In this document: positions 8,409-12,760 of the stretch, piece after piece
Layout of the letters: every line of letters starts with the position of its first letter
Position numbering within the stretch: position 1 is the first letter of the stretch
Origin: Alicyclobacillus sp.
GTDB taxonomy: Bacteria > Bacillota > Bacilli > Alicyclobacillales > Alicyclobacillaceae
Direction of reading: 5' to 3'
Assembly: GCA_023511725.1 (NCBI GenBank)
Contig: JAIMAY010000006.1
Coordinates: 1 to 64,000 of the forward strand
DNA: 64,000 nt
The notes under the pieces: generated by a model
Database searches by the model: none
What the model was told of the DNA's origin: nothing
The model's input: only the letters and a program-made list of their open reading frames with translations
Program-made: the position numbers and the translations under genes

Positions 8409-9086
8409 TTAGCCCCGCTTCGCCAACAGGTCTAGGCGCACTGTCCATTGGTCCTTGTCGCCGGTCAGTATACCGTCGCGGCGGAGCTGGTTCCAGATGC
8501 GGTTGACCGACTCCCGCGTCAATCCAACCATGTGCGCCATCTCGGCGTGCGTGACGGGCAGACGGAAAGTGGCCGTGCCATCCGGATGACGGGTGCCGTG
8601 TTCATCGACGAAATGGCGGATGAGCGCAATCACCCGCTCCCTCGAGTCGTACACCGCCAACTCCTGCAACTTGGCCTGGAGCTGTAGGATCTTGCTGCCC
8701 ATCACACGCATCACCTTGCGCGCAATGTCCGGATGCTCCATGAGCAGAGCGTCGAAGGCAGCGTTGCGAATGGCGAGCAGGAGGCTGGTTTCCATTGCCT
8801 GCGCGCTGGCGGGGTATGGTCCCTCCTGAAAGAAGCCGACATGCGGAAACATCTCCCCAGCCCCCAGGATGTTGACGATGTGCTCCCGTCCTTCCTCATC
8901 CACCTTGACGATTTTGATGAGACCGCGGCGAATGAAATACACGGCCTGCCGGTCTTCACCTTCCATAAACACATACGCACCGCGAGGTACGCGATGCTCC
9001 GTCGCCAAGGTCGCCACCTTGCGCAACTCATCTTCCGTCAGACCGCGAAACAGCTCGATTTCCTTGAGCACGGCCAGCGTATCCAT
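8409..9086 (-). CDS. Crp/Fnr-family transcriptional regulator
   Basis: A 225-aa regulator with an N-terminal cyclic-nucleotide-type beta barrel (about 10-120), a dimerisation helix and a C-terminal winged helix. The recognition helix reads TRESVNR, with Arg, Glu and Arg placed as in E. coli Crp (RETVGR), which bind TGTGA/TCACA; the ExxSR pattern of Fnr is absent. There is no cysteine in the protein, so it cannot carry an Fe-S cluster as Fnr does; its signal is unknown. Two matching operators occur at 1460 and 24229. The ATG at 9086 is nine bases from GGAGG; the ATG at 9092 is too close. It is divergent from the membrane protein at 9329. Confidence 0.9.
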   Translation of the reverse strand: MDTLAVLKEIELFRGLTEDELRKVATLATEHRVPRGAYVFMEGEDRQAVYFIRRGLIKIVKVDEEGREHIVNILGAGEMFPHVGFFQEGPYPASAQAMETSLLLAIRNAAFDALLMEHPDIARKVMRVMGSKILQLQAKLQELAVYDSRERVIALIRHFVDEHGTRHPDGTATFRLPVTHAEMAHMVGLTRESVNRIWNQLRRDGILTGDKDQWTVRLDLLAKRG

Positions 9087-9328
9087 ACCCATGATCCTCC
9101 TCGCGGGGACCCGCCCCGTTCGTATCCTGCACGTCAAATTGACACATCGTGTGATCTGGAACGGCCCTGGTATCCGAATCAGGGTCCGTCCCGTACAGAC
9201 CCGTAGCAAAATGGTCTATCTGAGCCTGTCGGCCTGGCCGCACCCGCGCTAGACTGAGATCAGCAGGCGGCGATGCAGGAGCGACGGGCCGGCCCCCGAA
9301 TCGCCACCATCGAAAGGAGGGAGCAGCG

Positions 9329-10015
9329 ATGTCCGCCTTGGTCTCGCGTCTCGCAGCCAAGCTGAATCAGGCAGACCGGCAGTTGTCATTATTTTGGCGC
9401 CGGCGGCCGATGTTGGCGCCCGCGGCCACGCTGCTCACGTTGGTGGTATGGGGCGGAATGGAGCATGATCCGCTGTTCGTCCTGACGCTGGCCGTCGTAG
9501 GCGCCCTTGCGTACACCACCGGGCTGGTGGTGGGCTTCGTCGCGTCGGCGCTGGGCACGGTACTGCTCGTCGCCCTCCGCTGGGGGCACACGGGCGTCCA
9601 AGTGGAGGTGGCAATGGCAAACGGGCTCGTCATGGGCCTCGGCCTGCTGCTCTCCGCCTGGATGGGATACCACCATCGGCGTGTGCGGGAGATGGCACGT
9701 AAGTGGTCAGAAGCACAGACGACTGCAGCGCTGCACCACCGTCCGCACGTCTTGCCGTGGGCTGTAGCGAACGAGATACGTACATCCCTGGCCGCCATCC
9801 GCTATCTTTTGTTCCCTGTGCACGGGCAGGCGGACCCAGAAGCGTTGCAACGGGCCACGCGGGAGCTGGCACGGCTGGAGGCGCTGTTTGACGAGTGGGA
9901 CCCGGACAAAAAGCGGGCGACGCTGTCCGTTGTGAACCCATCGGATGGGACCCAGGCCCCTCCGAATACTGCCTCCCGTTCGACCCCGTCCCCGTCCAAT
10001 CCGTACCACCGCTGA
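9329..10015 (+). CDS. Membrane protein with a HisKA-like helix lacking the phospho-accepting His
   Basis: A 228-aa protein I cannot assign to a named family. About four hydrophobic segments lie between residues 28 and 113, followed by a cytoplasmic part. Residues 145-158 read AVANEIRTSLAAIR, which mirrors the dimerisation helix of HisKA sensor kinases (HEIRNPLTAIR), with Asn148 in place of the phosphorylated His. A second helix (ATRELARLEALFDEW) matches the second strand of that hairpin. There is no ATPase domain; a Pro/Ser-rich tail ends the protein. So it looks like a kinase input and dimerisation module without catalysis, perhaps a partner or decoy for the neighbouring two-component proteins. 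The start has an AAAGGAGGGAG Shine-Dalgarno sequence. Confidence 0.75.
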   Translation: MSALVSRLAAKLNQADRQLSLFWRRRPMLAPAATLLTLVVWGGMEHDPLFVLTLAVVGALAYTTGLVVGFVASALGTVLLVALRWGHTGVQVEVAMANGLVMGLGLLLSAWMGYHHRRVREMARKWSEAQTTAALHHRPHVLPWAVANEIRTSLAAIRYLLFPVHGQADPEALQRATRELARLEALFDEWDPDKKRATLSVVNPSDGTQAPPNTASRSTPSPSNPYHR

Positions 10016-10101: not shown

Positions 10102-10782
10102 TCAGACGTCCTCCGACGAAGGCGCGTATCCTTCACGAATCGCATACGCCGCGGCCTGCACACGGTTTGACAGATGAAGCTTCTCGAGAATATTGCGCAC
10201 ATGATTGCGCACCGTATTCTCGCTAATGTAAAGCTTGCGAGCGATATCGCGGTTGGTCGCGCCAGTGGCAAGCAAGCGAAGTACCTCGAGCTCCCGTTCC
10301 GTCAGCGCGTCCACCGGCGTACGTTCAGGGTGCGCCGGCGCCGGTCGTGAAAACTCGCTGATGATCTGCATCGCCAGATTCCCCGGCACCACCGGTTCGC
10401 CTCGGCTGACACGGCGCACGCTGTCAATCACCTCGCGCGGGCTTGCGCTTTTCAGTACATATCCGGCCGCCCCCGCCTTCACAGCCTCGAACAGTGCCTG
10501 TTCAGCGTCGGTGACAGTGAGGATGAGAACCTTAACATCAGGCATTTCCGTCTTGATGGCGCGGGTCGCGGCGAGTCCGCCCATTCCCGGCATGTTGATG
10601 TCCATCAGAACCACATCCGGGTGCGTCACCCGGCACTGCTCCACGGCCCGCCGACCGTCTTCGGCCTCTCCCGCGATTTCGATGTCGCCCGCTCTCGAGA
10701 GGATATAAATCACGCCTTCACGGAAGAGCTCATGGTCATCCACCACGAGCACGCGGATTTTGCGCTGATCCGCCTCCGTCAT
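10102..10782 (-). CDS. NarL/FixJ-type response regulator
   Basis: A 226-aa two-component regulator. The receiver domain (about 8-125) has the acidic pair VVDDHE, the phosphorylated Asp in VLMDINMPG, and the conserved Thr and Lys (ILTVTD, YVLKSASP). The output domain (about 155-220) is a LuxR-type helix-turn-helix (LTERELEVLRLL, NRDIARKLYISENTVRNHV). It is divergent from the sensor kinase at 10992, its likely partner. The ATG at 10782 is seven bases from GGGGAGG; an in-frame GTG at 10788 touches it. The exact box TAGTCCGTTTG sits between the two genes. Confidence 0.93.
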   Translation of the reverse strand: MTEADQRKIRVLVVDDHELFREGVIYILSRAGDIEIAGEAEDGRRAVEQCRVTHPDVVLMDINMPGMGGLAATRAIKTEMPDVKVLILTVTDAEQALFEAVKAGAAGYVLKSASPREVIDSVRRVSRGEPVVPGNLAMQIISEFSRPAPAHPERTPVDALTERELEVLRLLATGATNRDIARKLYISENTVRNHVRNILEKLHLSNRVQAAAYAIREGYAPSSEDV

Positions 10783-10890
10783 CTTCACGCCTCCCCGTCC
10801 TGTACCGGCACAGCGCCGGTACCCCCTGTTGCTATGTTCTTATCGTAACAGAGCGTACGCCCATTCATCATGAGAGGAATGAACCCCCGT

Positions 10891-10927
10891 GGTCGCACGT
10901 AAGATAGTCCGTTTGAACCATGCGACC
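10891..10927. promoter_or_regulatory. Box TAGTCCGTTTG inside a 7-bp inverted repeat
   Basis: GGTCGCA (10891-10897) and TGCGACC (10921-10927) form an exact inverted repeat around the box TAGTCCGTTTG (10905-10915). It lies between the divergent response regulator and sensor kinase genes. The same 11 bases recur exactly at 22718 and 33330. A role as binding site of the response regulator, or as part of a promoter, is inference. Confidence 0.45.
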
Positions 10928-10953
10928 TCACACACTTCCAAGTACGATCAGAC

Positions 10954-10975
10954 TGCACCATGTTAGAATGGTGCA
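10954..10975. promoter_or_regulatory. 8-bp inverted repeat before the sensor kinase start
   Basis: TGCACCAT, six bases, ATGGTGCA: an exact inverted repeat ending four bases before the GGAGG of the kinase gene. It could be an operator, or a hairpin in the mRNA that affects translation of the kinase. Confidence 0.4.
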
Positions 10976-10991
10976 ATCGGAGGTGTTCCGT

Positions 10992-12113
10992 GTGACGCTC
11001 ACCTCAGCGAGCACCCGTCCCCAGACCGGCCGGGCCGAGGGGAGTCCGCAGCCGGCGCCGCGGACGCCTATCGATTCGGTTCCGACCGAACTGTTCAAAG
11101 CGTTGTTCGACCATGCCGCCGACGGATTGGTGGTGATGAACGACCGTCGGGAAGTCCTATACATGAACGCCGCAGCCGTACGGCTGACCGGATGCGATCC
11201 CGCTGTGCACACCGGCGCTCATTGCGGTACGCTGTTTCATTGCCATGATGACGACCATCCGGCGCTGCGTACGGAAAACTGCTATGGCCATTGTGTGCTG
11301 GCCACGGGCGAGCCGGTGACCGATGTGGAAATGAGCATCGTGGCGCAAACCGGCGACGTGATTCCCGTGGCTGTGACGTATTCGCACATCCCCGGGCCCC
11401 ATGGACACTACCTTCTCATGTCCATCCGGGATATCAGTGATCGCAAGCGCCTCGAAAACGAGCGGCGCCAGCGTGAGGCGCTGCAGTTCACTCTGGAGGA
11501 ACGCGAACGACTGGCGCGCGACCTGCACGACGGAGCCGTACAGGACATCGCCTATGCCAACATGCAACTGAAAATGTTGCTGGATGACATTCGCGATGGT
11601 CGACCGGTCACCGAAGCCGACGTGGCCCGGATCAGCCAGGTCCTCGACGGTAGCCTCAAAGGCCTGCGCGAAGCCATTCACGACCTCACGTTCCGCGTCG
11701 AAGGTGACCTGCTTGAGCACCTGCGGCGCGCGCTTTTGGAGTTTCAAACCCGGAGCGGCATCGAGGCACACCTCGACACGGACGCGGAGACACTGCTCCT
11801 GCCCCCGCATGTCAGCAACCAGCTGGCCAAGGTGGTCCAGGAAGCATTGCACAACATTCGTAAGCATGCGCAGGCTCACCACGTTTATGTCTCCTGCCAA
11901 TTGATCCAATCGGCCAGCCAGCGACGACCGGTCGCAATGCGCCTTGTCATTGAGGACGACGGCGTGGGGTTTGACCCGCAGGCCGTCCCGGCAGACGGCC
12001 ACTTCGGAATGAAGAGCATGCAGGACAGGTGCCGTCTGGTCGGCGCTGCATTCAAAGTGGAGTCCGCCCCCGGACGGGGAACAAAGCTTCTCATTCACCT
12101 GCCGCTGCAGTGA
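10992..12113 (+). CDS. Cysteine-rich PAS sensor histidine kinase
   Basis: A 373-aa soluble kinase. The PAS domain (about 33-150) holds four clustered cysteines, Cys78, Cys84, Cys97 and Cys101 (C-x5-C-x12-C-x3-C), which suggest a metal or redox centre. The HisKA_3 box ERERLARDLHDGAVQD places the phospho-accepting His at 179, and the ATPase domain follows (QEALHNIRKHA, EDDGVGFDP, GHFGMKSMQDR). No membrane segment is seen, as in the oxygen sensor NreB. The frame is open upstream to ATGs at 10920 and 10968, but the GTG at 10992 is eight bases from GGAGG and the others lack a Shine-Dalgarno sequence. Partner: response regulator at 10102. Confidence 0.9.
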   Translation: MTLTSASTRPQTGRAEGSPQPAPRTPIDSVPTELFKALFDHAADGLVVMNDRREVLYMNAAAVRLTGCDPAVHTGAHCGTLFHCHDDDHPALRTENCYGHCVLATGEPVTDVEMSIVAQTGDVIPVAVTYSHIPGPHGHYLLMSIRDISDRKRLENERRQREALQFTLEERERLARDLHDGAVQDIAYANMQLKMLLDDIRDGRPVTEADVARISQVLDGSLKGLREAIHDLTFRVEGDLLEHLRRALLEFQTRSGIEAHLDTDAETLLLPPHVSNQLAKVVQEALHNIRKHAQAHHVYVSCQLIQSASQRRPVAMRLVIEDDGVGFDPQAVPADGHFGMKSMQDRCRLVGAAFKVESAPGRGTKLLIHLPLQ

Positions 12114-12219: not shown

Positions 12220-12690
12220 TCATGATTTCCGAATCCGCACCTGAACGTATCCCTCGGCCTCGCGCTCGTCGATGTCGTATCGGAAACCACGCTCCTCCAA
12301 CTCTGGAAGAAGGAAGGCTGGTGTCCTGTCATTCCAAATCTCGAGTCCCCACTCCCCGGATTGAAGCCGAGGCTCCGTATCCAGCAGCTCCAGGGTCCGC
12401 ATCATCGGCTGCGGCGGCTCCAATCCGCGATTGTCCAGCCGCCAGTACGTAACAGCATCGTCGCCGCGCGCGAACTGGACCACAAAGTGGTCATCCTCCA
12501 ATTGCCGCACAATGCCCCGTAGTCCTTGCCGGCCGAGCACTCGAAGCAAAGGCACCGGCTCAAACGTGGCATGCAACTGGAACACGTCCTGTGGCCCTAG
12601 CGTCTTCACCGTCTCCATGATGAGCTGGAACGGCTCGCCCTTGGCCCGGAGAATCTCACGCACATCCAGGTCCACAATCCGCCGCGTCAT
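12220..12690 (-). CDS. DUF2249 protein
   Basis: A 156-aa cytoplasmic protein with two copies of a DUF2249-like fold. The first (about 6-60) reads LDVREILRAKGEPFQLI and continues to PVPLLRVL; the second, shorter copy (about 98-146) includes LEIWNDRTPAFLLPELEERG. DUF2249 proteins often accompany denitrification genes and hemerythrins, but their biochemical role is unknown to me. It directly follows nirK (70 bp) on the same strand, so it is probably co-transcribed. The ATG at 12690 follows GGAGGAG; the upstream ATG at 12720 has no such site. Confidence 0.8.
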   Translation of the reverse strand: MTRRIVDLDVREILRAKGEPFQLIMETVKTLGPQDVFQLHATFEPVPLLRVLGRQGLRGIVRQLEDDHFVVQFARGDDAVTYWRLDNRGLEPPQPMMRTLELLDTEPRLQSGEWGLEIWNDRTPAFLLPELEERGFRYDIDEREAEGYVQVRIRKS

Positions 12691-12760
12691 TCGTATCTCC
12701 TCCTCTTTCTCGACCTCCATCAGAAAGGCGCCCCGTTTTCCCGCTCAGGGGAAGACAACT

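Follow-up and report, generated by a model that had tools for sequence, protein, structure and literature searches.

A membrane protein family of the Alicyclobacillus order with a HisKA-type hairpin and Asn at the phospho-His position

The X locus

The window analysed here is a stretch of 64,000 nucleotides from Alicyclobacillus sp. (contig JAIMAY010000006.1, positions 1 to 64,000). It carries a gene, termed X, whose ATG start codon has AAAGGAGGGAG a short way upstream (Table 1). The protein is arranged as a helical start, a membrane domain, a linker, a helical hairpin and a variable tail. Upstream, X is flanked by a divergent Crp/Fnr-type regulator gene. Downstream, the gene of a NarL-type response regulator converges on X across a gap of 86 bases. 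Next along the window comes a PAS-HisKA_3 kinase gene, transcribed away from the regulator gene; this kinase is likely the one that serves the adjacent regulator. The same three neighbours had been named in a first-pass annotation made from the sequence alone, and all are confirmed. The kinase gene is adjoined by a gene for a DUF2249 protein with a weakly TusA-like second half (12220-12720, minus strand).

Table 1. Features of the X locus (window coordinates).
Feature	Position	Strand	Residues or basis
Gene X, membrane protein with C-terminal pseudo-DHp hairpin	9329..10015	+	228 aa
X membrane domain, residues about 29-120	9413..9688	+	hydropathy, model helices, invariant columns
DHp-like helix 1, residues 144-163	9758..9817	+	W144, N148, R151, S153, R158, F162 invariant
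Asn148 codon, phospho-His position	9770..9772	+	profile alignment; Asn in 57/57
DHp-like helix 2, residues about 172-190	9842..9898	+	E179, R182 invariant
NarL-type response regulator, receiver + GerE HTH	10102..10788	-	D17, D18, D63, T91, K113 present
PAS-HisKA_3-HATPase kinase	10920..12113	+	four cysteines in PAS domain
Crp/Fnr-type regulator, divergent neighbour of X	8409..9209	-	

The window protein has hydrophobic stretches at residues about 43-85 and 91-112, and the structure model places the helices of the membrane domain at residues 29-44, 48-64, 66-87 and 92-135. Among 57 homologues, hydropathy gives four hydrophobic peaks in 36 and three in 18. Gly58, within the membrane domain, is invariant in this set, as are Gly113 and His116, where the last hydrophobic segment ends. 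Lying just past that segment, His116 is a candidate ligand or cofactor site.

A HisKA-type hairpin with Asn in place of His

Residues 145-158 of X read AVANEIRTSLAAIR, with Asn at position 148. The first-pass annotation had recognized here a HisKA-like pattern with Asn as the putative phospho-acceptor and no ATPase domain behind it, and profile comparison bears this out. Against 11 HisKA domains from the window's genome, the 57-member X profile scored 44.6 at a probability of 95.7% (hhalign); the best of 60 column-shuffled controls reached 16.0 and the reversed profile 12.6. The alignment sets AVANEIRTSLAAIR over NVSHELKTPIAAIR and so places Asn148 on the phospho-His. When the X profile was compared to HisKA_3, the probability was 0.8% and the score 12.9 over 6 columns, which does not amount to family similarity. 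The window protein alone is too diverged to be matched by Pfam HisKA at E≤1, let alone at the curated cut-off. A PF00512 scan of the whole window genome at E≤0.01 gave 12 HisKA matches elsewhere, X not being among them, and the same family matched 23 of the 57 homologues at E≤0.1 (best E 2.9e-4).

Structure prediction had been set beforehand as a check on the hairpin. An antiparallel two-helix hairpin was predicted both in the whole model (helices at residues 144-161 and 170-190) and in a hairpin-only model, each a single chain, the latter with a pLDDT of 79.4. Taken alone, the hairpin resembles the DHp domains of HK853, YycG and PhoR at low Z. Histidine kinases among its best structural matches are 4u7n (Z 7.0, 56 residues, 2.4 A) and 5uht (Z 6.7, 57 residues, 2.5 A), followed by 4zki (Z 6.5) and the PhoR DHp domain (5ukv, Z 6.4). 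These Z values of 6-7 fall short of what the tool itself regards as confident for helical bundles, and unrelated proteins appear among the same rows. The structural comparison is therefore taken as supporting evidence only. Foldseek likewise matched the hairpin to DHp structures weakly (E 1.6-3.6). With the whole model, Foldseek returned nothing informative (best E 1.9), and a whole-model structural comparison (VIA) paired only the membrane helices, and these with unrelated proteins.

The open reading frame stops 38 residues past helix 2, so no ATPase domain follows the hairpin. HATPase_c has no match in the window protein and is absent from the 25 families listed for the 57 homologues. By sequence comparison, X consists of a membrane domain and a HisKA-type hairpin sequence with Asn fixed at the phospho-His position and without an ATPase domain. 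The earlier description of a non-catalytic, membrane-bound HisKA-like protein is supported.

X is conserved across the order

A single-sequence scan of the genome contigs found no relative, and a profile scan found 44 loci. At family level 30 of 41 genomes have relatives, and at order level 46 of 59; the named carriers are Alicyclobacillus species, Sulfoacidibacillus thermotolerans and Ferroacidibacillus organovorans. In a class-wide draw the profile matched 31 of 398 genomes, one match (G147) coming from outside the order; another class-level match (G158) was a spurious, transporter-like frame. A phylum-wide draw gave matches in 4 of 398 genomes, the window's own genome being the sole real one; the other three were two different membrane proteins and an ordinary histidine kinase. 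The 57-member set comprises 38 family matches minus G036:C24 (E 0.0016) and 23 further order matches minus G050:C154, G047:C65 and G058:C44, the last of which was treated separately (L152/L131).

All residues marked invariant in the hairpin (Table 1) are identical in 57 of 57 members, Asn148 included, and five extra copies (L147-L150, L152) likewise have Asn. The position following Asn148 is Glu in 50, Asp in 5 and Asn in 2 members. Position +4 is Thr in 36, Asn in 18 and Ser in 3, and position +5 is Ser in 57/57. Mean column identity reaches 0.80 in helix 1 and 0.59 in helix 2, compared to 0.41 in the membrane region.

Homologues with His and an ATPase domain had been named in advance as the outcome that would make X a broken kinase. 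His occurs in 0 of 57, and the families listed for the homologues include no ATPase. That X is the decaying remnant of a histidine kinase can hardly be maintained: the catalytic His and the ATPase domain are indeed absent, but conservation refutes this reading, and the class-wide and phylum-wide draws, of 398 genomes each, yielded no kinase sharing the X membrane domain. A suspected fusion (G056:C2, a 614-residue open frame) proved to be merely an open stretch upstream of X. Judged from its sequences, X is no broken kinase: Asn is fixed in 57/57, conservation is order-wide and the frames are intact. It makes up a conserved family of the Alicyclobacillus order that apparently has no name. The earlier statement that no described family has this layout agrees with the absence of any Pfam or NCBIfam match above cut-off for the window protein.

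The constant neighbour of X is one clade of response regulators

In a tree of the regulators near X, those of X loci fall in one clade, apart from the two other NarL-like matches of the window genome. A long-branched set of five unrelated regulators inside the clade was left out of the counts. Members of the clade lie within 6 kb of X in 36 of 57 loci and are the immediate neighbour in 26. The count was initially 42 and fell to 36 on removal of L037, L048 and L052 (long branch) and L069, L073 and L081 (receiver only); at L040 and L049 an additional, unrelated regulator was disregarded. Of the 21 loci with no clade member within 6 kb, nine run into a contig end on one or both sides. The window genome has a single member of the clade, its next full-length relative being 31% identical.

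Genome-wide counts give the same association. With regulator presence defined by a cut-off of 219 bits, set at a gap in the scores, 42 of the 59 genomes have both X and the regulator, 4 have X only (G043, G045, G049, G055), 3 the regulator only (G002, G048, G054) and 10 neither. The Fisher value of 3.6e-6, uncorrected for kinship, overstates independence, since nine of the ten genomes with neither come from one genus. The constant neighbour of X is the regulator clade, neither the kinase nor the Crp gene. The search for homologues with the same neighbours and the same Asn, proposed beforehand, found the Asn in 57 of 57 and the regulator in 36 of 57 loci, with a kinase class that varies. The Crp/Fnr-type gene adjoins X in the window only and was rejected as a part of the X system.

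Kinases and respiration genes around X

The 36 loci with a clade regulator have a HisKA_3 kinase nearby in 19 cases and a HisKA kinase in 11, and none was seen in 6. HisKA_3 kinases scoring at least 146 bits occur in 25 genomes, of which 24 have X. NarL-type regulators are more usually paired with HisKA_3 kinases, and the HisKA-class PAS kinases found beside clade regulators at L031, L034, L039, L057 and other loci are an unusual class pairing. The four PAS cysteines are conserved in most HisKA_3 kinase relatives that retain the PAS domain. They recall Fe-S sensors such as NreB, and this PAS domain is a possible Fe-S or redox sensor.

The proposed heterodimer of X with the neighbouring kinase is unlikely, because the profile of the X hairpin shows no similarity to HisKA_3, the class to which that kinase belongs. 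In a broader form, X would enter a mixed dimer or complex with some histidine kinase and tune it, as RocA does with CovS. The RocA study (PMC7028121, in excerpt) describes a membrane pseudokinase that co-precipitates with CovS and can do without its histidine, and an excerpt on truncated ChrS suggests that this protein may pair with HrrS (PMC9491836). Helix 1 of X is also close to that of some neighbouring HisKA kinases (RTSLAAIRFLL vs RNPLAAIKWSL). Against this stand the HisKA_3 kinases of the window and 18 other regulator loci, a class to which the X profile shows no similarity (probability 0.8%), and the small number of loci (15 of 57) with a solid HisKA-type neighbour; this count was 22 before weak or other kinases (L040, L046, L048, L049, L052, L073, L081) were removed. 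We consider kinase tuning of this kind unlikely.

Cta (cytochrome oxidase) or Qcr genes are present in 21 of the 57 X loci and universal stress proteins in 13; we assigned these names from sequence, save for the proteins run against Pfam. The hairpin could be a plain dimerization or signalling helix pair for a membrane domain whose partner lies outside the two-component proteins, for example in a respiratory complex. The Cta/Qcr genes, the invariant His116 and the 21 loci without a clade regulator within 6 kb, nine of them truncated, would fit such a partner. The near-invariant helix 1, the genome-wide co-occurrence with one regulator clade, and 71-residue soluble copies (see below) that retain the hairpin and drop the membrane part near regulator-like genes argue the other way, and make a respiratory partner quite improbable.

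Probable docking and restraint of the regulator

Three options had been offered for X: a heterodimer with a kinase, the holding of a response regulator, and membrane sensing without catalysis. The second, widened to holding or dephosphorylating, is the best of the three because the regulator, and neither the kinase nor the Crp gene, is the constant neighbour. Weighing the evidence on phosphatase activity and docking given below, we commit to this reading over kinase tuning: on balance, X probably docks the adjacent regulator at the membrane and restrains it. The hairpin would dimerize and bind the receiver domain of the partner regulator as a HisKA DHp domain would, and docking would lower the activity of the regulator. 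The likeliest route would be dephosphorylation by way of the Thr or Asn four residues past Asn148; by a second route, X would simply keep the regulator membrane-bound. The membrane domain may sense something linked to respiration and thereby switch docking. X, itself no kinase, would then act alongside the true kinase as a brake or tuner.

Docking is favoured by the conservation of helix 1 (0.80 compared to 0.41 in the membrane domain), which is the helix that contacts the regulator in HisKA kinases. For phosphatase activity counts the Thr/Asn choice of X at +4, which is that of the phosphatase residue of HisKA kinases. Excerpts of one study (PMC3510030) state that in HisKA kinases the +4 Thr/Asn is needed only for phosphatase and the +1 acid only for kinase activity, that NtrB and EnvZ need no more than the DHp domain for phosphatase activity, and that in EnvZ the His helps this activity yet is dispensable.

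Other published observations point the opposite way, again in excerpt. Loss of His reduces phosphatase activity in CrdS H371A and HK853 H260A, and loss of the +5 Pro reduces it strongly in CrdS (PMC3510030, PMC5727384). DHp-only EnvZ in mammalian cells had no apparent phosphatase activity (PMC8971529), and ChrS cut after the DHp domain seemingly lost this function (PMC9491836). X has no His, and Ser stands at +5 in 57/57. The +1 acid, needed only for kinase activity in CrdS (PMC3510030), is nevertheless Glu in 50 of 57 X proteins, which also counts against a phosphatase. Against docking and restraint as such, X is missing from G002, G048 and G054, all of which have the regulator. The more usual service of NarL-type regulators by HisKA_3 kinases was likewise counted against docking by X. 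As a first guess, we place phosphatase action somewhat ahead of holding: X would be a dedicated phosphatase, because it keeps the Thr/Asn and the fold without the His and the ATPase domain.

Comparison with known systems

X shares with HisKA (PF00512) DHp domains of the HK853, YycG, PhoR and NtrB type the two-helix hairpin, the E/D-x-x-T/N pattern after the key residue, the Arg at +3 and the E..RL pattern of helix 2, together with the profile and structure matches. It differs in having Asn for His, Ser for the +5 Pro and no ATPase domain; with neither a phospho-acceptor His (Asn in 57/57) nor a HATPase_c match, it is not a histidine kinase. Spo0B is also a DHp-like hairpin protein without kinase activity, but it keeps the His and relays phosphate, whereas X has no His.

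Pseudokinases of the RocA and DivL type combine a DHp domain with a degenerate catalytic domain, which X does not have. RocA of group A Streptococcus, likened to X by description, is a membrane-spanning pseudokinase accessory to a two-component system, with a dispensable phospho-His (excerpt of PMC7028121); unlike X, it has kept a His as well as a catalytic-type domain, and its action runs through the kinase CovS. DivL of Caulobacter, as excerpted from PMC4211667, is a pseudokinase in whose DHp domain a non-His residue (Tyr) is fixed; it binds a response regulator and can dispense with its catalytic domain. Its architecture of PAS sensors and DHp-CA differs from the membrane domain and DHp hairpin that alone make up X. 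A ChrS frameshift mutant of Corynebacterium glutamicum comes close in layout, with a membrane domain and DHp but no ATPase domain, and according to an excerpt still regulates (PMC9491836); it is a laboratory-evolved kinase mutant with the His in place, whereas X is natural and order-wide. DHp pseudokinases are already known (RocA, DivL, truncated ChrS), and what appears new is the layout of X. No natural, order-wide membrane protein made up solely of a sensor-like membrane part and a DHp lacking the His turned up in searches of the open-licence literature. Kinases have been cut down to the DHp domain in the laboratory to part phosphatase activity or docking from kinase activity, and evolution appears to have done likewise, with Asn fixed at the catalytic position throughout an order. 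In X, nature provides a test of whether a DHp domain lacking both the His and the ATPase domain is able to control a regulator; X may also bear on the tuning of respiration genes in acidophiles such as Alicyclobacillus.

Origin of X and small soluble copies

In G027 and G028, the best match of the X profile after X itself is a HisKA kinase within about 3 kb (E 3e-6 and 5e-5), and helix 1 of the HisKA kinases beside some X copies is alike at +6 to +11. As far as these sequences indicate, a kinase of this kind that shed its ATPase domain and its His may be the ancestor of X. The main specificity positions of EnvZ are given in an excerpt as +7, +11 and +12 (PMC2991266). X has A/L/S, F/L/Y and L/V there, and its HisKA neighbours mostly A, W and S, a partial likeness. 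The profile of these neighbours was built from the 18 of 24 HKpas rows with a recognizable H-box; four of the 18 are ordinary kinases with other H-boxes.

Two identical soluble hairpin proteins of 71 residues with VNEVRNSLLAIRLLLF are encoded in G147 (L149:5989-6204 and L150:5995-6210). Both retain the hairpin without the membrane part and lie near or next to NarL-like genes whose receivers lack the phospho-Asp (Ala or Val instead) and the conserved Lys. These copies beside Asp-less receivers fit binding better than phosphatase action, and suggest that docking can matter without phosphate. A tentative generalization, which we consider less likely than not, is that the regulator is the fixed partner of X as a self-standing membrane DHp, with the kinase swapped between two DHp classes, and that X has been reduced in a neighbouring family to the 71-residue soluble hairpin, which with the Asp-less receivers would form a two-component-like pair acting through docking and not through phosphate. 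At L151, a third regulator is degenerate too and is followed downstream by a truncated hairpin frame. In Sulfoacidibacillus thermotolerans, a soluble hairpin protein of 108 residues or shorter (L131:5004-5330) is encoded away from the regulator, upstream of a small open reading frame of 119 residues.
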